DNA from: a virus
DNA: 64,000 nt
IMG/VR virus record: IMGVR_UViG_3300030019_000003
Coordinates: 186,001 to 250,000 of that record
Direction: 5' to 3' (one strand)
In this document: piece by piece, positions 2,066 to 47,634 of the stretch
Numbering within the stretch: the stretch's first letter is position 1
Layout of the letters: each line of letters opens with the position of its first letter
The notes under the pieces: model-generated
What the model saw: the letters and a program-made list of their open reading frames with translations, nothing else
Told to the model about the DNA's origin: nothing
The model's database searches: none
Made by a program: the position numbers and the translations under genes

Positions 2066-3103
2066 ATGTCTAACAAAATTGTAATTCATGCGTGCGGTGG
2101 TGCTGCCATCTCTGTTAGTAGTAAAGTTATCATGGCTAATCTTCCAGTAGGTTTTGGTTATGCTGAAGTAGATATTCACGCTGTTGATACTACTGATGCT
2201 GACTATAAAGATTCAAATCTTCTGAACCCATTATGGCTTATCAGTGGTGATTCACACTCTAAAGGTGTTATCAATGGTTCCGGTGGTGAAAGAGGTGAGA
2301 ACCTAAATGACATCAAAGCAGGTATTCCTAACTATCTTGATGACAAAGGTTTTAAACATCTTAAAGATGGCGAGTTTCATATTGTTATGTCAGCCCTTGG
2401 TGGTGGTTCTGGATCAGTTATAGGACCTATTATTTACAAAGGTCTTGCTGAGAGAAACATTCCTACGATCTATATCGGTATTGGCGATTCTAGAGATTTC
2501 CTACACGGTAATCACACCATCAACACTATCAAAACATTAGAGTCATTTGCTAAAAAAGCAGCTAAAGCATGCAGCTTTATTTATCTTAATAACACGACTG
2601 CTGATAAGGTGATGAATGTTGGTGAGGAAAAAGTCAATATGGAGATTAAAAATATCCTAACCGGGTTAACAATCTTCTTATCTGGTGAGAATCAGTCTTT
2701 GGATAATAAAGATATGATTAACCTCATGTGTATGGACGAGTATACCTCTATCGATATTCAACCAGGTATTTATGGTTTGAGTTTAGTGTCTAAAGTCCCT
2801 ACGCCACCAACAGGTTCTATCCCATTGGTAGCTAGGACATTGACGATTCCAAACATAAGTCCTGATCTTAACATTCAGACTTTCCATCACAAGTACGGCT
2901 ATGTTAAATCCCCAGAAATCATTGAGATCGTTGAAAAACAACTACCATTACATCTTATCAGCTATGGTAATGTTTTCGGTGCCATTACTCGTGAGATTAA
3001 CGAGATGGTATCAAAACAAAAAGAAGTGATCAGCTCTATCGTATATGATGGTGTTACTGGATCAGACAGCGCTACTGCAGACGATGACGGTATGTTTATT
3101 TAA
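2066..3103 (+). CDS. phuZ: PhuZ-like phage tubulin (GTPase)
   Basis: A 345-residue tubulin/FtsZ-superfamily protein. The glycine-rich GTP-binding signature is GGGSGS at residues 112-117 inside MSALGGGSGSVIGP; a Gly-rich loop GSGGERGEN lies at 71-79. The C-terminal tail is acidic (ATADDDGMFI), as in PhuZ, where it drives filament assembly. In nucleus-forming phages PhuZ filaments centre the phage nucleus and carry capsids to it. The signature has Ser where cellular homologues have Thr. Shine-Dalgarno ATAAGGA; a strong hairpin terminator follows at 3112. Homology by motif is firm; the spindle role is inferred from the family and from the chimallin gene in the same genome. Confidence 0.85.
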   Translation: MSNKIVIHACGGAAISVSSKVIMANLPVGFGYAEVDIHAVDTTDADYKDSNLLNPLWLISGDSHSKGVINGSGGERGENLNDIKAGIPNYLDDKGFKHLKDGEFHIVMSALGGGSGSVIGPIIYKGLAERNIPTIYIGIGDSRDFLHGNHTINTIKTLESFAKKAAKACSFIYLNNTTADKVMNVGEEKVNMEIKNILTGLTIFLSGENQSLDNKDMINLMCMDEYTSIDIQPGIYGLSLVSKVPTPPTGSIPLVARTLTIPNISPDLNIQTFHHKYGYVKSPEIIEIVEKQLPLHLISYGNVFGAITREINEMVSKQKEVISSIVYDGVTGSDSATADDDGMFI

Positions 3104-3111
3104 TGTCAAAC

Positions 3112-3147
3112 TAACACTATAGAGAGGGAAGCCTCTCTATAGTGTTA
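3112..3147. terminator. Terminator hairpin after phuZ
   Basis: Perfect 16-bp stem with a GAAG tetraloop, nine bases after the phuZ stop, followed by a T-rich stretch (ATATTTTTT). Confidence 0.85.
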
Positions 3148-3198
3148 TGAATATTTTTTCTATTTCAGGTGTATATATGATAAGAGGGGGGAGTATCT

Positions 3199-3585
3199 AT
3201 GGTCACTTATAATAATACAACAGATTGCTTATTAGTAATAGATATCGATGATGTACTATTTTCACTCATAAACAATCTAAGAGAACGCAATATTGGAATA
3301 CTAAAAAAACATGTTGATACTATTGTACTGAACTCAATTGTCTATAGTTTAAACATGTTTGGATATTTTACAGTAAACTATGAACCTCCATTAACACCAA
3401 GATCTTTTAGTGTTATGCGGGGTAGGAATCTTATTTATGATTTCTATACTAGCATACGTGAAACTATGCTATCTAAAATCTTTAGTATACTTTCAAGTAC
3501 TCCATTAGTTTTTAATAAAGCTTACTTTATACGGGCTATAACTGTCAATACAAAAATATTCATAATATTAACAACTGAAAGGTAA
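3199..3585 (+). CDS. Unknown protein, first gene of the small-gene operon
   Basis: 128 residues, ATG after GAGGGGGGAG. Begins with an alternating hydrophobic segment LLVIDIDDVLFSLINNL (about residues 11-27). The next gene has VIIDIDNELIVIENIL at a comparable place, suggesting divergent paralogy. No catalytic motif recognised and no clear membrane helix. First of eight closely packed genes (3199-7075) ended by one terminator. Confidence 0.5.
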   Translation: MVTYNNTTDCLLVIDIDDVLFSLINNLRERNIGILKKHVDTIVLNSIVYSLNMFGYFTVNYEPPLTPRSFSVMRGRNLIYDFYTSIRETMLSKIFSILSSTPLVFNKAYFIRAITVNTKIFIILTTER

Positions 3586-3590
3586 TACCT

Positions 3591-4304
3591 ATGGGTAGTG
3601 AATCACATGTACACAATACTGAATACCGTGAAGAAGAAGGACTCTGCGTTATACGCTATACGCGTAACCCAATGCTTTTGGAAAACAACTATATTATTCG
3701 TGAACAAAAAGCTCCGCACCGAACTGTCATTATTGATATTGACAATGAGCTCATCGTTATAGAAAATATACTTAAAAAATATATTCCAACTTCAAAATAC
3801 TGGTGGTTTACAGCGTCTACACGTTATCCTTTAACAGTAGAAGAAAAAATAGCATACTCTGAAACACATAAGATAGTTAACACGCCTTATTATCCTTTTA
3901 TAGGATTGCCTATCGTATTAGAGATACTTAAAAATATGGCTGTTGTAAACAGTGATGCTTATGAGCTATATTTTGGTAATCCTGTGCTAGATAAAAAAGA
4001 AGCTATCGTGTATGCCAATAGGGATAGAGTTAATACACAGCATGTTAATATAGTATTAGACTATATCGAAGATAACTCATCTGTTAATCTTAGGAATAGT
4101 GAACTTCTGAATGATGTGTCCTTTATAGTCAAGATTGTTGAAGAATTATTTACAAATAAGATAGCTTCTTTAGCGGCTGCATTTACAACGCACATCATTG
4201 ATTTTAATGTTACTGGCAAGTATGTTGTTATGTACAGTTATGGCGAAGCAGGATTAATTAGACTAGATGAAGCTACGGAGGTGATACGTGAGCGAGTATC
4301 TTAA
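3591..4304 (+). CDS. Unknown protein, DIDxxL motif family
   Basis: 237 residues, ATG five bases after the previous stop, overlapping the next gene by 17 bases. Residues about 44-60 read VIIDIDNELIVIENIL, comparable to the previous product and to the leftward gene at 49207 (YVDIDTLFDTRLPLLYMF). The paired acids could suggest a metal or nucleotide site, but no full family signature is present. Function unknown. Confidence 0.5.
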   Translation: MGSESHVHNTEYREEEGLCVIRYTRNPMLLENNYIIREQKAPHRTVIIDIDNELIVIENILKKYIPTSKYWWFTASTRYPLTVEEKIAYSETHKIVNTPYYPFIGLPIVLEILKNMAVVNSDAYELYFGNPVLDKKEAIVYANRDRVNTQHVNIVLDYIEDNSSVNLRNSELLNDVSFIVKIVEELFTNKIASLAAAFTTHIIDFNVTGKYVVMYSYGEAGLIRLDEATEVIRERVS

Positions 4305-10200: not shown

Positions 10201-10518
10201 ATGCATGAGAGTACAGTTGAGGCGTTATTAAAATTAAGAAAAGCTTGGGCACCACGTTTAACGCCAGAGTTGATAGATGCTGCTATTATTAAAGAGAGCT
10301 ATTTAATCTTTCCAGAGACAACTGTTACCGTATGCTGTTTAACACTTGTAAATGGCTTTAACGTAGTTGGGTATAGCAGTTGTGCCTCTATAGAGAATTT
10401 TAATAAAGAGATAGGCGAGAAAGTTGCTAGAACTAATGCTAGAGATAAAATCTGGGATCTAGAAGGTTATCTTCTTAAACAAAAACTGTATGAGGACGCA
10501 CAAAATGTCACTGCCTAA
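10201..10518 (+). CDS. Phage Gp49/66 family protein
   Basis: 105 residues that match the pattern of the N4 Gp49/Sf6 gene 66 family as remembered: an early ELIDAAIIKESY segment, then CCLTLVNGFNVVGYSSC, then ENFNKEIGEKVARTNARDKIWDLEGYLL in slightly varied form. The family is widespread in phages and has no firmly established role. Overlaps the next gene by 14 bases. Confidence 0.8.
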   Translation: MHESTVEALLKLRKAWAPRLTPELIDAAIIKESYLIFPETTVTVCCLTLVNGFNVVGYSSCASIENFNKEIGEKVARTNARDKIWDLEGYLLKQKLYEDAQNVTA

Positions 10519-23287: not shown

Positions 23288-25465
23288 ATGGCTGAAGATA
23301 CAACTGGGTTAGGGATAACTGATTTATACCCAACCTATGATATAAGTTCCGTTATCAAAACAACAACTGATAAAGAAAGTGCTAATAATAACAGTGTTAA
23401 AGTTATTGATAAAGATTGGGTTGATTTTAGATTTTTTATGTCAGATGATCAATTAGAAGATATAGATGCTGTTAATAGGTACTTTACAACAACAGCCTGG
23501 AAATTCTCAGATACAACACTAGGTGGTAATATCGCCATTAATGCCAGACCACAATTTACACGCTATGCTGATATACGTAGTGGAAGTAGGGTTACACGTA
23601 ACGAAGTTACAGTTCCATCTCATGAAGGTAATTACGGTATGGGACGTTACTATTCTGAGGCTATAGATGATAACTTACAATTAATTTATTTTACGTTTGG
23701 TGTAGCTGAATTTAACAGTTTACCTAACTTCTTTACTAGAGCTATAGATTATACCGATAGTGTTGTAGCTAATACAGGTAAGGTTCCTGTTGGTTATATT
23801 GTAGGTCAATTTCTTGGAGATGGTATCATGCTTGCCGCATTCCCTATGATAACCTTATCGATATGGGCATTAAAGTTAGTTTCTAAATTGATATTAGGCA
23901 GTGAAGAATTTAACTTTTACTACATGAAACCCGCCATGCATGCCTATTGGGGTACTGTTAATACATTGGTAACTACATTAGCTACTGAAATGGGCATATT
24001 AATACCAGAGCTAATGAATGACTCTACTGTAGCACAACGTATGGGTTTACCGGTACGATTGAATCAAGAAGATCTAAGTGAGATGCGTAGACAATTTCCA
24101 ATGTTACTAAGTAACAATAACTATATAGATGTTTATGCCATAGCCGCTAGACCACAAATCATTGCTAATCACCAACACTATTATGAACGAGAACTTTATG
24201 ATCAAAATCCTGATGGTGCTTTTAACTTTGTAGGTTATGTTAAAAATGAAAACGCAACATCTTCTCAGAATAGTCCATCAAGTTTAATATCCATGATGAA
24301 TACCGCTATATCCTTTGAAAGAACAGTTGTAAAATTTCAAGATTTTCTAGATAAGATGGTTAAAGGTAGTGAGTTATACGGAGAAAGATTTAACGATACG
24401 TCTACGGCAACTACATCGCAAACAGCCACAACAACATCTGCTGATAGTACAACTACTAAGCCAAACTATACTAAAGATAATGCTGGTACCTATCCTGGTA
24501 AAGATGATCCGGATAGAGAGGGTTACTTAAATAAGTTAACACGAGCTTTAGACTCTAGTATTAGAGATGGTGCTATGCATGCTGTGTTTGCTGTTGACTA
24601 CTCCGGTCCTGTAAGTGAATCTTTTAGTAACTCTACCGGCAATATAGGATTAGCAGATAAGATTAAAAGTGTCGCTACCGCTGCTAGAAATATTAAGTTT
24701 GATCTAGAGGGGGGTAATATTAATGATACTGTAACTGCTGGGCTAGCTACAGTTAAGAATGTTCTTTCTGGTGCATTAGATAGTGTGTCTTTTGGGTTAT
24801 CTGGTGCTATAGCTACAGCTACAGGTAGCGCTTTCGTAGATATACCTAAAAAATGGGAAGATTCAGATATGAGCATGCCGTCAGCATCTTATACGATACA
24901 ATTGATATCACCTTACGGTAATACTATATCTCAGATGCAAAATATTTATATACCACTTTGTATGCTACTAGCAGGGACGTTACCACTATCTGCAGGTATG
25001 AGTTCCTACGCTTCGCCTTATTTATGTTCTGCGTTTTGTAAAGGTGTACAAAATATTAAGATGGGTATGATAACGAGTTTAAGTATTACCAGAGGAACTT
25101 CTAACTTAGGGTTTAGTAAAACACGTAGACCACTTGCTATTGATGTTAGTTTTACAGTTACAGATTTTAGTAATAAAATAACTGCACCAGTATCAAGTAG
25201 TATTTTTAGTTCATTTGGTGTTGCGCTTAATGACAATACTCCTATGGGTAATTATCTAGCGGTACTAGGTTCTAGAGATATTCTAACCAGTAAGTATACT
25301 GTTCCTAAGATTAAATTAAGAGCTTCTAGGTTATTGATGTCTTTTGATCAAATGATATCACCTGCGTCTATGGGTGTTAGAATGGGTGCAGGAGGATTAA
25401 ATAATATCCTAGGTGGTCTTCTTATGGATCATACTGTTAACGTTAACCAGTTAAACAAATACTAA
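23288..25465 (+). CDS. Large virion structural protein
   Basis: 725 residues. Pattern RYADIRSGSRVTRNE, then GNYGMGRYYSEAIDDN and NSLPNFFTRAID, recalls a conserved structural protein of large phages whose exact role I do not know. A hydrophobic stretch lies at about 175-210 (GYIVGQFLGDG, AAFPMITLSIWALKLV). A low-complexity Thr/Ser linker lies at about 375-395. The C-terminal half has IQLISPYGN and a Met/Gly-rich end. Its own ribosome site AAGGAG lies downstream of the protease terminator, so an independent promoter is likely. It is not a recognisable HK97-type capsid protein. Confidence 0.6.
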   Translation: MAEDTTGLGITDLYPTYDISSVIKTTTDKESANNNSVKVIDKDWVDFRFFMSDDQLEDIDAVNRYFTTTAWKFSDTTLGGNIAINARPQFTRYADIRSGSRVTRNEVTVPSHEGNYGMGRYYSEAIDDNLQLIYFTFGVAEFNSLPNFFTRAIDYTDSVVANTGKVPVGYIVGQFLGDGIMLAAFPMITLSIWALKLVSKLILGSEEFNFYYMKPAMHAYWGTVNTLVTTLATEMGILIPELMNDSTVAQRMGLPVRLNQEDLSEMRRQFPMLLSNNNYIDVYAIAARPQIIANHQHYYERELYDQNPDGAFNFVGYVKNENATSSQNSPSSLISMMNTAISFERTVVKFQDFLDKMVKGSELYGERFNDTSTATTSQTATTTSADSTTTKPNYTKDNAGTYPGKDDPDREGYLNKLTRALDSSIRDGAMHAVFAVDYSGPVSESFSNSTGNIGLADKIKSVATAARNIKFDLEGGNINDTVTAGLATVKNVLSGALDSVSFGLSGAIATATGSAFVDIPKKWEDSDMSMPSASYTIQLISPYGNTISQMQNIYIPLCMLLAGTLPLSAGMSSYASPYLCSAFCKGVQNIKMGMITSLSITRGTSNLGFSKTRRPLAIDVSFTVTDFSNKITAPVSSSIFSSFGVALNDNTPMGNYLAVLGSRDILTSKYTVPKIKLRASRLLMSFDQMISPASMGVRMGAGGLNNILGGLLMDHTVNVNQLNKY

Positions 25466-25501
25466 TAACACAGACTAGGACTAATGTCCTAGTCTGTGTT
25501 A
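25466..25501. terminator. Bidirectional terminator between convergent genes
   Basis: 15-bp perfect stem (TAACACAGACTAGGA and its complement) with a 6-base loop between the two convergent stop codons. Confidence 0.8.
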
Positions 25502-25502
25502 C

Positions 25503-26666
25503 TTACGCCACTGCGTTTATTGCGTAGATAGTTTCTGATTCTGAAAGACTGGTATTATAAGTACCAGATGTATCTGTAGAACTTTTACCAGTAACATCTG
25601 TTGCCGATAGGGATGATAATCTTTTATTACCATTAGTTCTATAATAGTTTGTATCTCCTGCAGAGTCTTTATTCCAAGAAGAGTCAACATTGTTTAAACC
25701 TGTAACAACATTCTTATAGTCACCTGTGCCATAGGTAGTGTTAGTGTTTGTTGTGTTATCTAGATTACCTATAACGTTATCTAGACTTGATTTAGTATAA
25801 TTTTGAGATAATGAACCTGAACCTGCTGGATCTGTGCTTACAACTGAATTTAAAACAGAAAGCTTTGTCTCAGTATTATTATCATTTGTCCCACTTAAAG
25901 AATATCCTAAACCACTGTAGATAGTATCTCTACTTGTACCATTTGATAGCATACCATCTATAAAGGTAGATGATGTTGCTGCGCCAGAGCTACTAACATG
26001 ATTAATAACACTCCCTGTTGTAGCTGTTGTAACACTACTATTTGACATAATACCACTAACAGCTTTAGTTAAACAACGTGCTAAACTAGAATTAAGTAAG
26101 TTTGTTAAACCTAGCTTTCTGGATAATGATGAACCTATCTTATTTAAGGCACTTAGGAGGCCACTCAGTACACTTCCTATCAAACAGACAGGTATTGATA
26201 TCAAACCACCTATGGTTGACCCAAATAAGCTTGTAGCTGTAGAGTTAATCATATTCGTAAGACCCATGATACTGGTTGTTGGTAATCTTACACTAACGTT
26301 ATCAAAACTACTTAAGTTATTAACATTTCCTAAAACACCGTCCATACCATTACTACGACGTCCATTACTACATAACGTTGAACCACCATAACCTAAATTT
26401 CTAGAATCACGAGAAGTATAATAGTTACTTCGTTGGTTAGAAGATAGTCCAGAGGTGTTACACGATGTATCAAACATTCCTAAAGATGATGATAAACTTT
26501 GATTACCCATTCTGACATTACTACCAATACCACTCATAATGTCACTACCACTATCGGATAATGAACGAGTATTATTAACAGCATTAGTATCGGATGCTGT
26601 AGAGTAGTTACCGACTGGTATGTCGGTTAGGCTTGATAATGATAGCCTGTCCGTGGATATAGCCAT
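25503..26666 (-). CDS. Ser/Asn/Gly/Thr-rich low-complexity protein
   Basis: 387 residues, dominated by Ser, Asn, Thr, Gly and Asp. A hydrophobic island at about 130-210 (ISIPVCLIGSVLSGLLSALN and neighbours) could insert in a membrane or form a helical core. Shine-Dalgarno AGGAGGAG is very strong. No family recognised. It is convergent with the 725-residue virion protein and divergent from 26761. A structural or tail role is possible. Confidence 0.5.
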   Translation of the reverse strand: MAISTDRLSLSSLTDIPVGNYSTASDTNAVNNTRSLSDSGSDIMSGIGSNVRMGNQSLSSSLGMFDTSCNTSGLSSNQRSNYYTSRDSRNLGYGGSTLCSNGRRSNGMDGVLGNVNNLSSFDNVSVRLPTTSIMGLTNMINSTATSLFGSTIGGLISIPVCLIGSVLSGLLSALNKIGSSLSRKLGLTNLLNSSLARCLTKAVSGIMSNSSVTTATTGSVINHVSSSGAATSSTFIDGMLSNGTSRDTIYSGLGYSLSGTNDNNTETKLSVLNSVVSTDPAGSGSLSQNYTKSSLDNVIGNLDNTTNTNTTYGTGDYKNVVTGLNNVDSSWNKDSAGDTNYYRTNGNKRLSSLSATDVTGKSSTDTSGTYNTSLSESETIYAINAVA

Positions 26667-43472: not shown

Positions 43473-45332
43473 ATGAATGGTAACAACAATGGAGCAGGGT
43501 TAACGTTTGATGAAAATGAGGGTACTGGAAATCCAGCAGTAGGTCAAAATGAGAATTTGCAGCAACCTAATGGATACGCGCCTTATCAAAATGAGGGTTC
43601 AACCACGTATGATAATGGATTCAATTTGTTTCAAAGTGGCTTCTTATCAACACAACCTGGCTCAGAACTTACTGCGAAATACTCTAAAGGTATTTTAGAG
43701 TTTATCGAAAAAATTAAAAGAACCGGTTTTAAAGTTAGCGAACTTGACAACGCTACGATTACAAATTTAAAATACAGTTCTATCATCATCTCTGCGGTCA
43801 ATGGACCAGAAGTACTTTATTACACATTGCTTATTGCCGCTACAGGTAAAGCTTCTCATAATGTTAAAGATTACTTCAATGTTCTTTCTGATGCAGAACG
43901 TATGAGTCTTAAAGATGCAGATGAAGCAGTGCGCTCATTGTACTTACCTTATATCGCATTTGATAATGACTATAAAGCAGCGATCGAAGCAAAACTTGAT
44001 GAAACTTATGGTACAAAATACAAATACGTTTCTCTTGATGGTTTCATCATTCATGAAGATGTTGTTGACAGTGAAGATCTATATCGTCATATGTTTGCAA
44101 AAGCGTTTAATGCGTTCCATGCTGAAACAAAAATGAGTGATGGTGTTGGCGATGCTACTATTGAAAACATTGCAAGATCTGCAAACTATCGTATCGCAAG
44201 TAACGGATGTAGAAACAGCGTTTCAGCATTGACTCCATTTGGTGCTGCTGTTAGAACTGACTGGCAGTTATCTTTGATTCCACAACCTCGTAAACAATCT
44301 TCTAACAGTATTCACACTGAAGGTGCTGTTGGACCTATCTTAACAGTTGGTGGTTTTGTAGATGCTATCCCTGAACAAACAATGATCCAAGAAGGCTTTG
44401 GTCAAATTGCAGGTATCCGTTATCACCCACATATTATCGTAACAAATGTTGCAAGTGCGTATGAAACAACGGGTATGGCTCTTCTTGCTATTACTGTTGG
44501 TGTAAGTATGGTTAAACCTGAAATGTATCTTGCGTCATTATCGCCAAGAGCTAAAAACAATCCAGGCGCATTGAATGTATTTGCTAACCTTGCTAACAAT
44601 CCAAATGGTGGTGAGTTCTTAGATATGACAACTGCAGCGTATACTCCTGATGCTATCATGGATTCATTGTCTAAAATGTTTACATTGGCTCCAGTGTTCT
44701 CTATTGATATTGAAACTTTTGGTCCTGATGCTTATACACTTTCTGCATTCACAAGTCTTACTAAAGAGAACCCAACAACATTCGCAGGTGCTGCAGCTTA
44801 CTTGGTTAACGTTGCGTCTAAACTTACAAAAGGCATGTTTCCTACTGAATATGACCTTAACAAAGTTATTGCTGGATTTACACGTGTCCCAACAGGTTCA
44901 TATATTGATCATGGTTCTAATGTACCATCTGATATTCGTGACTTTGATATGATCCGTGTTGTTAATGAGTCTGTTAACAATCCTAAATTGATTTACAAAT
45001 GGTACAACTCTAACACTAACCCAAATGGTTACAATGAAAAAGTTGAAGTTCTTGCAGCTATTAATCCAGGTGCTAAGATCACTGGTGAAGCAAGACGTGT
45101 TACGTTACATCCTGAGTTTATTGCAACACTTGTTAACGCAGTTTCTGCAAATAACCTTAGACCAAGTGCTACTCCTGAGGTTGAACTACAAACAACAAAT
45201 GGTTTCGTAGGTGGTGGTTTCTTTGCTACTGCTGGTGTTACCAATGTTGGTTTTGGTAACTTTGGTGGATTTGGTACAAATAGACCTGTAGGCTTTGGTA
45301 ACAACCAAGCTACATTTAGTAATCGTTTCTAA
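43473..45332 (+). CDS. chmA: Chimallin, phage-nucleus shell protein (probable)
   Basis: 619 residues, close to known chimallins (about 600-630). An Asn/Gly/Gln-rich flexible N-terminus (about 45 residues) precedes a folded alpha/beta core, and a Gly/Phe/Asn-rich tail ends the protein (FVGGGFF, NFGGFG, about 575-619); flexible N- and C-terminal segments link subunits in the chimallin lattice. Identity rests mostly on gene order, since the next large gene is RNA polymerase beta'-N, as phiKZ gp54 is followed by gp55, on size, on the PhuZ gene in the same genome, and on a strong early-type promoter. Core sequence similarity is recalled, not computed. Confidence 0.75.
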   Translation: MNGNNNGAGLTFDENEGTGNPAVGQNENLQQPNGYAPYQNEGSTTYDNGFNLFQSGFLSTQPGSELTAKYSKGILEFIEKIKRTGFKVSELDNATITNLKYSSIIISAVNGPEVLYYTLLIAATGKASHNVKDYFNVLSDAERMSLKDADEAVRSLYLPYIAFDNDYKAAIEAKLDETYGTKYKYVSLDGFIIHEDVVDSEDLYRHMFAKAFNAFHAETKMSDGVGDATIENIARSANYRIASNGCRNSVSALTPFGAAVRTDWQLSLIPQPRKQSSNSIHTEGAVGPILTVGGFVDAIPEQTMIQEGFGQIAGIRYHPHIIVTNVASAYETTGMALLAITVGVSMVKPEMYLASLSPRAKNNPGALNVFANLANNPNGGEFLDMTTAAYTPDAIMDSLSKMFTLAPVFSIDIETFGPDAYTLSAFTSLTKENPTTFAGAAAYLVNVASKLTKGMFPTEYDLNKVIAGFTRVPTGSYIDHGSNVPSDIRDFDMIRVVNESVNNPKLIYKWYNSNTNPNGYNEKVEVLAAINPGAKITGEARRVTLHPEFIATLVNAVSANNLRPSATPEVELQTTNGFVGGGFFATAGVTNVGFGNFGGFGTNRPVGFGNNQATFSNRF

Positions 45333-45641: not shown

Positions 45642-47634
45642 ATGGCTATAACACAAACGCTTATACCTATAGATCAACTCTATCAACGTACAGGTGCCAA
45701 GATCATATTGAATAAGCTAAATGCCTTCAGTATGACTGATCAAGAAACCTTGTCTAAAAGTATCATGACTGTTTATGATAATGTTGACGTTATTTCTACG
45801 ATACCGCAATGTGATTGTGGCGCTATTAAAGGTAGGTACCTATTAGGAACACGTTGCCATACCTGCGGTACTGAGTGTAAAGAACTACATGAGAAAGTAG
45901 ATCCTATCCTATGGTTAGAAGCTATGGATAAAGGTTTACGATTCTTAAATCCAGGATTCTGGATGTTGATGTCCGAGATACTAGATTCTAAAAAACTGGT
46001 AGATTGGCTAAGATGGCTATGTGATCCAACCTATAGTAATGAAACACCTGTTCCACCACATATACAAGGAATTTATCTTGACGTCTTAAAAAGTAAACGT
46101 GAGTATAATAATACGATGTTACGCTTAAGAGATATCATGGTTTATATTCTTAATATACCAAGACCAACAGCAAAAGCAGATAGCTTATCTAAAGTATCTA
46201 TTATTAAACTAATAGAACTGTATGATCAGTATACAGCAGATGATATTTTATTCTCAACATATCTTCCGATTGTTAATAAGAAATTGTTTGTTATGGAAAA
46301 TACGGCTAAGGGTAAGTTTGTTAATCTTGTTGTATCTGAGATTCTTGATATCGTACTATCGTGGGTTAAAAGTTCTAATGCATTTGAGATTGATAGGAAT
46401 CTTAAAAAAGCAGGCATCATTACAGCTATGGCAGTATCGGAATTAAGTAAGTTCTTTTCAGAATTTACGGATAAGTATATCTTGAAAAAATCAGGATTGT
46501 TTCGTAAGCATGTATATGGTTCACGAGGTCACTTTACTTTCCGATGTGTTATCGTGTCAATATCAGGTCCGCATGATTATGACGAGATACACATACCTTG
46601 GGCTGTAGGTGTAACTGTTTTACGACCTATGCTTCTTAATAAGCTACGCCAACGCGGTGTAACCTATAAAGCAAGTCATAAGTTGCTTATGCAATCTGTT
46701 AAAAAGTTTGATCCGTTAATAAATGAGTTACTATTAGAGTTACTAGCAGAATCTCCATTAGGAAAACTACCAGTAATATCACAACGTAACCCATCACTAA
46801 CACAATCTAGTGCACTATTAACGTATATTACTAAAGTAAAGACGGATGTTGATGATAAGACTGTAGGTATTAGCAGCCTTGTTTGTAAACTACCTAATGC
46901 TGATTTTGATGGGGATGAACATTTCGTCCCCCTAGGCATTGCTGCCTAGTAAAAAACCTCTCTAATTGCGGGAACCGACTTAAGACTATAGCTACTACTC
47001 GTACCTAGAAATAGAGTATGATACTTACGGAGTAATGTTTCCAGTAAGAAAAGTAAAAACGCTATAATATTGCGGAATCGACGCAGCGAAGCTTCTAAGT
47101 CCGATGAGGATATGAAGTAGGCTCAACGACTATCGAAACGACGCACTACAGTGTATGAGATGCCTATAGACGGTGTCGGTATAGGTAACTATACTCAACG
47201 GAGTAGAGTAGGGCCCAAGTGGGTGGGTATAGAATCCCTTAAATCGAAACGAGAGGAATTTGTAATTTTTAATTACAAGTTATGATATAGTCTATGCGAC
47301 TTATAAGTCTTTCCTAGTTTACAAACTAGGTCATCGTGTAAAACACACGAGCCGCATGTAAAGATGCGAGTATATTTAACGAATATGCTAAATATTTTAA
47401 GAAATTAATTTTACGTTAATTTTAGATACTTATCTACATGAGTTAGCTAAAACGTTCGCACCACATCACAATGTATTTGATGGTGCTAAACCTTATAGTA
47501 TCAATGGGTTTATTACATTATTAACACCTGCTAATGCTTTGTTATCAGACGCGCTAGATGATGATGAAGAAAGACCACTAGAAGACACTATTTATGACAA
47601 GTTAAAGTTTGTAAAAGTAGGTGTTAATAAATAA
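45642..47634 (+). CDS. RNA polymerase beta' N-terminal part, intron-split
   Basis: Exon 1 is 45642-46916 (425 residues) and exon 2 is 47401-47634 (77 residues), giving 502 residues. Exon 1 has a zinc-type pair CDCG and CHTCG near 63-80 and ends in the catalytic motif NADFDGD (419-425), which binds the active-site magnesium. Exon 2 continues EINFTLILD and then LAKTFAPHH, restoring the conserved sequence after DFDGD. Read through without splicing, the protein would stop at 46949. By its place after the chimallin gene it is the counterpart of phiKZ gp55, a subunit of the non-virion RNA polymerase that transcribes middle and late genes; the beta' C-terminal part is at 53612. Confidence 0.88.
46917..47400 (+). 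ncRNA. Group I self-splicing intron without ORF
   Basis: About 484 bases. P1 pairs exon end GGGGAU with GUCCCC (46911-46916 with 46926-46931) and has the diagnostic U-G pair at 46916/46926. P2 is a 7-bp hairpin (46932-46949). A P-type element AATTGCGGGAA lies at 46964-46974. P7 pairs GACTAT (47128-47133) with ATAGTC (47287-47292) in R- and S-like contexts CTCAACGACTATC and TGATATAGTCTATGCG. P9-type hairpins follow (CCTAGTTT-AC-AAACTAGG and others). P10 pairs exon 2 GAAAU with AUUUC (46921-46925). Because intron and exon 2 both start GAA, the junction can slide by up to three bases with the same mRNA; the shift by one gives a terminal G. Confidence 0.9.

Follow-up and report, generated by a model that had tools for sequence, protein, structure and literature searches.

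The interrupted gene and its phage

The window, by which we mean the whole 64,000-nucleotide stretch analysed here, comprises positions 186001-250000 of a 252,159-base virus record, a linear metagenomic contig of 252 kb that may be incomplete. The genes and the insertion considered below are as follows:

2066-3103, PhuZ tubulin
43473..45332, plus strand, nuclear shell protein (chimallin; phrog_4795, E 1.8e-22)
45642..46916, plus strand, exon 1 of the nvRNAP beta' N-terminal subunit gene, 425 codons, ending in NADFDGD
46917..47400, plus strand, predicted group I intron, 484 nt, no ORF (RF00028, relatives and fold)
47401..47634, plus strand, exon 2, 77 codons, starting with EINFTLILD (reading frame and tblastn)

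Markers of the Chimalliviridae type, namely the nuclear shell protein, PhuZ tubulin and a multisubunit RNAP, are present (phrog_4795, phrog_4733, phrog_3148 and phrog_2987), and since all three are encoded we class the virus among the jumbo phages of chimallivirus type. Directly 3' of the shell gene comes the nvRNAP beta' N-terminal gene, an order identical to that of gp54-gp55 in phiKZ. Exon 1 matches the RNA polymerase beta subunit family phrog_2987 (E 3.4e-100), which bears out the original prediction of a phage RNA polymerase beta' gene, as well as PDB 7OGP chain A (PHIKZ055-PHIKZ056.1), and the identification is further supported by tblastn to 273 phage records. Judged by these matches, the interrupted gene is the homologue of phiKZ gp55, the nvRNAP beta' N-terminal subunit.

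Removal of 46917-47400 joins NADFDGD to EINFTLILD in a single open frame of 502 amino acids, as had been predicted; reading past exon 1 in the unspliced message adds EHFVPLGIAA and then meets a stop, ten codons on, where termination had been foreseen. Exon 2 is itself conserved as coding sequence, with 37-48% identity to exon 2 of three IMG/VR contigs, L014, L015 and L017 (tblastn). The residue following DGD is Q, A, E, Y, M, S, T or N in 81 intact readings (homologous genes in the fetched loci, some of them near-duplicates), and after that one residue the intronless homologues mostly show L or M and then N, like the spliced product. EINFTLILD is thus the kind of continuation expected, similar residues standing directly after NADFDGD in the intronless homologues. 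The proposal that the intron lies inside the DFDGD motif has to be amended: the insertion is at the motif, but the catalytic triad is not split, the three aspartate codons all being in exon 1.

Structure of the intron and proposed splicing

A covariance search, which the original prediction had named as a check of its group I assignment, finds the core: RF00028 reports a single group I intron in the window, at 46907-47317 on the plus strand (E 1.1e-11), with a modest score of 56.6 bits, the gathering score being 50, and the match covers the full model (1-253). It stops within the P9 region, and the reading frame carries the intron on to 47400. The structural elements are:

46911..46931, plus strand, P1, GGGGAU GAACAUUUC GUCCCC (46911-46916/46926-46931), with the pair U46916.G46926 at the 5' splice site
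46921-46925, plus strand, P10, pairing with exon 2 over 5 bp
46932..46949, plus strand, P2 hairpin, CUAGGCA/UGCCUAG, 7 bp
46957..46962 and 47251-47256, plus strand, P3, 5' strand CCUCUC and 3' strand GAGAGG (RF00028 and centroid fold)
47128..47133 and 47287-47292, plus strand, P7, 5' strand GACUAU and 3' strand AUAGUC, 6 bp
47260..47278, plus strand, P8 hairpin, UUGUAAUU-UUUA-AUUACAA, short and perfect
47295..47296, plus strand, P9.0, 5' half UG, pairing with UA 47398-47399 before A47400
47298..47388, plus strand, five P9-type hairpins from the fold, named P9, P9.1, P9.1a, P9.2 and P9.2a by their order along the intron

The U-G pair in P1, the 6-bp P7 and the 5-bp P10 all agree with what had been drawn from the sequence beforehand, and P1 is further extended by a GAA/UUC pairing. 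The G-C pair of P7 that binds guanosine is unchanged and the same as in the relatives. A long insertion separates P7-5' from P3-3', a feature of IA-type introns, so that the intron is IA-like. The intron RNA has a fold z of -5.4, none of 100 dinucleotide shuffles being equally stable, and it contains no ORF of at least 80 aa, in keeping with the predicted absence of an internal reading frame. Rfam E-value matches to microRNA families elsewhere in the window were dismissed as chance.

We consider, with a probability of about 0.93, that in this nucleus-forming jumbo phage the nvRNAP beta' N-terminal gene is interrupted at 46917-47400 by a self-splicing group I intron, a real and probably functional one in an essential gene, which would be spliced in vivo. 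P1 would hold U46916 to the internal guide sequence while a guanosine bound in P7 attacks after it; the freed exon 1 would then attack the 3' splice site, placed after A47400 by P9.0 and P10, and the joined exons would encode a subunit of 502 aa whose active-site barrel is intact. The polymerase for the later phage genes could then be made only after a ribozyme has removed itself from the message.

Comparison with phiKZ and PhiPA3

The nvRNAP beta' gene of phiKZ (L162, NC_004629) is interrupted at N|ADFDGD, between PHIKZ055 and PHIKZ056.1, by a group I intron that bears an HNH gene. This intron with PHIKZ056 (HNH) shares with the window its group I type, the homologous gene and the NADFDGD motif, but it lies six codons further upstream, is 1372 nt long, carries an HNH gene and ends in omega-G. 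NC_004629 annotates the phiKZ pieces as three separate genes. The joined gp55 and gp56.1 have a computed mass of 55.7 kDa versus 47.9 kDa for the unspliced ORF, and gp55 purified from phiKZ-infected cells was 56 kDa (PMC4666361). PDB 7OGP chain A is PHIKZ055 fused to PHIKZ056.1, and DFDGD 417-421 is in the active site of the solved phiKZ enzyme (PMC8287921). The spliced phiKZ product therefore fits both the published 56-kDa subunit and 7OGP; in the literature searched we did not find a statement that the gp55/gp56.1 interruption is an intron.

In PhiPA3, the gp210 intron of the vRNAP beta gene has been named (Birkholz 2024, PMC11620839), as has another RNAP intron (PMC10449902). Like that of the window, the gp210 intron is of group I and follows codons for conserved aspartates in the RNAP gene of a chimallivirus; however, the subunit and the polymerase are different ones, and the PhiPA3 intron encodes a nicking HNH endonuclease, which acts against a co-infecting phage (PMC11620839). 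Both the kind of intron and the motif that it targets are already known from phiKZ-type phages. New are the apparent omega-A end, the occurrence at one site of introns that carry an endonuclease and of one that lacks it, and the dense clustering of insertion points, together with predicted micro-exons.

The 3' splice site

A guanosine, omega-G, is nearly universal at the 3' end of group I introns. At the proposed boundaries the last intron base is A47400, a point on which the original prediction is silent: given a 5' cut after U46916, the motif is restored in frame only by a 3' cut after A47400. As a test of this register we asked, in 14 tabulated introns, whether bases +3/+4 after the P7 3' strand can pair with the dinucleotide that precedes omega. 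The P9.0 pairing holds in 14/14 (AC/GU, AA/UU, GU/AC, UU/AA, AG/CU, CU/AG and UG/UA), with two Watson-Crick pairs in every intron except that of the window (UG/UA). It puts omega at an A in the window, L014 and L015, and the remaining 11 introns end in G. At the omega-A register P10 has 5 bp in the window and 6 bp in each of L014 and L015. Other 3' splice sites within 9 nt were tried and each fails on frame, P9.0 or P10. Sequencing error at the terminal A is unlikely, as three separate records agree. The intron of the window and those at the same site in L014 and L015 thus apparently end in A rather than omega-G, and the exact 3' end in the window would lie after A47400. Since the guanosine site of P7 is unchanged, the second step of splicing should be hindered by a terminal A; it may indeed be slow, or P10 and P9.0 may assist it. 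In a tree of P4-P7 cores the window intron does not stand beside those of L014 and L015 and the three are not firmly grouped, so that the terminal A may be inherited or convergent, possibly having arisen more than once.

It could instead be argued that these are standard omega-G introns cut one base later at both ends, in the window after G46917 and G47401, which would accord with the near-universality of omega-G. The window product is unchanged by this shift, G46917 and G47401 being the same base, and the mRNA would be identical. However, the 5' cut would be moved off the U.G pair, the shift would put a lysine after DFDGD in L014 and L015, where none of the 81 homologue readings has one, and at the register of the other introns P9.0 can form in each of the three only if omega is A. 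We regard this shifted reading as rather unlikely. The terminal A might also be taken as the mark of a dead intron, the beta' gene being a pseudogene or its protein being made as two pieces. Against this stand the conservation of both exons as coding sequence across relatives, the absence of a second beta' gene copy from the record (a 252-kb contig that is possibly incomplete), and the phiKZ homologue, which functions as a single fused chain in the enzyme whose structure was solved, and we find a dead intron very improbable.

For the apparent omega-A end, the only precedent for a missing omega-G known to us is the Coxiella 23S rRNA intron, reportedly L1951, which is said to end in A. One group I intron in the Coxiella burnetii 23S rRNA is reported to lack omega-G, and two introns to flank a 34-bp exon (Raghavan 2007, PMID 17644584). 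Both the omega-G-less end and the short flanked exon recall the phage cases, although the Coxiella introns are in a bacterial 23S rRNA. Since omega-G is missing from an established group I intron, an intron ending in A could still belong to the group. A functional omega-A intron, if true, would test how strictly the second splicing step needs guanosine.

Introns at the same site and mobility

An intron occupies the identical site, DFDGD|x, in the window, in the Pseudomonas phages fnug, PA7 and PS119XW, and in the IMG/VR contigs L014, L015, L017 and L018. Exon 1 of the window is 51%, 49% and 44% identical to that of L014, L015 and L017, respectively, in which the intron follows the same GAU codon. 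Over 382 nt, the L015 intron and its 5' flank match the window at 75.7% identity. In L014 and L015 the P8 loop holds a NUMOD4/HNH_3 protein (454 and 445 aa, 49% identical to each other) where the window intron has only UUUA. The fnug, PA7 and PS119XW introns, at DFDGD|Q, share the insertion site, and that of PS119XW is likewise ORF-less; they differ in having about 61% core identity to the window intron and in ending in omega-G, and an ORF is present in those of fnug and PA7, in fnug an HNH one. Pattern scans for close relatives of the intron returned only the phage of L015, terminase copies identical to the terminase intron of the present genome, and an RNAP beta intron with omega-G.

The record contains no NUMOD4 or GIY-YIG match and no close homologue of the L015 NUMOD4/HNH nuclease, the single weak HNH match being the following:

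656-1078 of the window, freestanding HNH_3 protein, 140 aa

With only UUUA in its P8 loop and no close nuclease homologue in the record, the window intron is best read as an endonuclease-free form, probably of a mobile NUMOD4/HNH intron that persists at the same site in relatives; it would have lost its nuclease and by itself is probably no longer mobile. Shared descent of the window and L015 introns rests on the whole-intron match and the shared site, because the core tree places the window intron apart. The earlier suggestion that mobility would need a nuclease in trans fits the missing P8 gene and the lack of a close homologue. ORF-less introns can home by separately encoded nucleases, and continued mobility through a freestanding protein such as that at 656-1078, 32% identical to the L015 nuclease over 68 residues, could be envisaged. 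However, this HNH gene is 45 kb away from the intron, its product has no NUMOD4 and resembles the L015 nuclease in the HNH part only, and the record offers no NUMOD4 or GIY-YIG alternative, so that we hold mobility by this route to be improbable.

Other introns of the same phage

Two further introns were identified, with positions given in the record:

25163-25584, minus strand, ORF-less group I intron in the DNA polymerase gene
135070-135455, minus strand, ORF-less group I intron in the terminase large subunit gene

A 45-nt stretch of the terminase intron is 93% identical to the window intron, a similarity suggesting that introns have spread inside this genome or from one related phage to another. 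The possibility that these two introns also end in A was rejected, since intronless homologues and P1/P9.0 give normal omega-G ends; the DNA polymerase intron, outside the table of 14, shows one of two P9.0 pairs at its omega-G boundary. They provide no further omega test, because at those sites introns are absent from the DNA polymerase relatives and from most of the terminase ones.

An insertion hotspot with predicted micro-exons

Across different phages, five codon boundaries of NADFDGD in the nvRNAP beta' gene are occupied by introns:

N|ADFDGD, phiKZ
NA|D, L019 and L020
NAD|F, L018
DFDG|D, L019 and L020
DFDGD|x, the window and seven others

The same few codons have thus been invaded repeatedly in different phages. 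In Vibrio phage Yong XC31 (L002, about 2862-4290) a different type of RNAP beta' is interrupted at GAD|FDGD by an intron that carries an HNH-like ORF. Every one of these occupied boundaries, including GAD|F of Yong XC31, follows a U. Introns at the inner sites are rare among the 80 loci, a sampling effect, since an intact NADFDGD was one of the grounds on which these loci had been selected. Insertions also recur at a site some 40 codons upstream, in fnug, L017, L018 and L019.

In the beta' genes of three contigs from other jumbo phages, L018, L019 and L020, a 12-nt micro-exon encoding FDGD or DFDG is predicted between two group I introns:

L018, 10211-10222, predicted micro-exon TTTGATGGAGAT, 12 nt
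L019, 7922-7933, predicted micro-exon GATTTCGACGGT, 12 nt
L020, 8659-8670, predicted micro-exon GATTTTGACGGT, 12 nt

Both flanking introns score above the Rfam gathering threshold in L019 and L020 and below it in L018. That phage introns splice with a 3'-terminal A and an ordinary guanosine site, in a motif invaded at five NADFDGD boundaries where intron pairs isolate a 12-nt exon for two catalytic aspartates, is a combined reading towards which we lean at little better than even odds. The nvRNAP active site is naturally suited to testing how introns home, how co-infecting nucleus-forming phages interfere with one another (PhiPA3 gp210 is an example) and how precise splicing is when two adjacent introns enclose a 12-nt exon.

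In L018, an apparently NUMOD-like coding remnant (LRKAAKFLNIDRKTLVKKL) lies at 10223-10370 in the P1 loop of the site-C intron and is perhaps a decayed endonuclease. In L016 (7240-9168) the beta' gene breaks off near DFDG/DFDGD, and next comes an ORF of 476 aa that includes an HNH-like stretch; a group I core runs up to the contig end, and exon 2 is off the contig. Finally, a group I-like intron missed by Rfam at E 0.001 is present in L160 (1706-2241), at GxKG (GS|KGVV) in an RNAP beta-type gene from a phage, with an omega-G and an AG/CU P9.0 pair.
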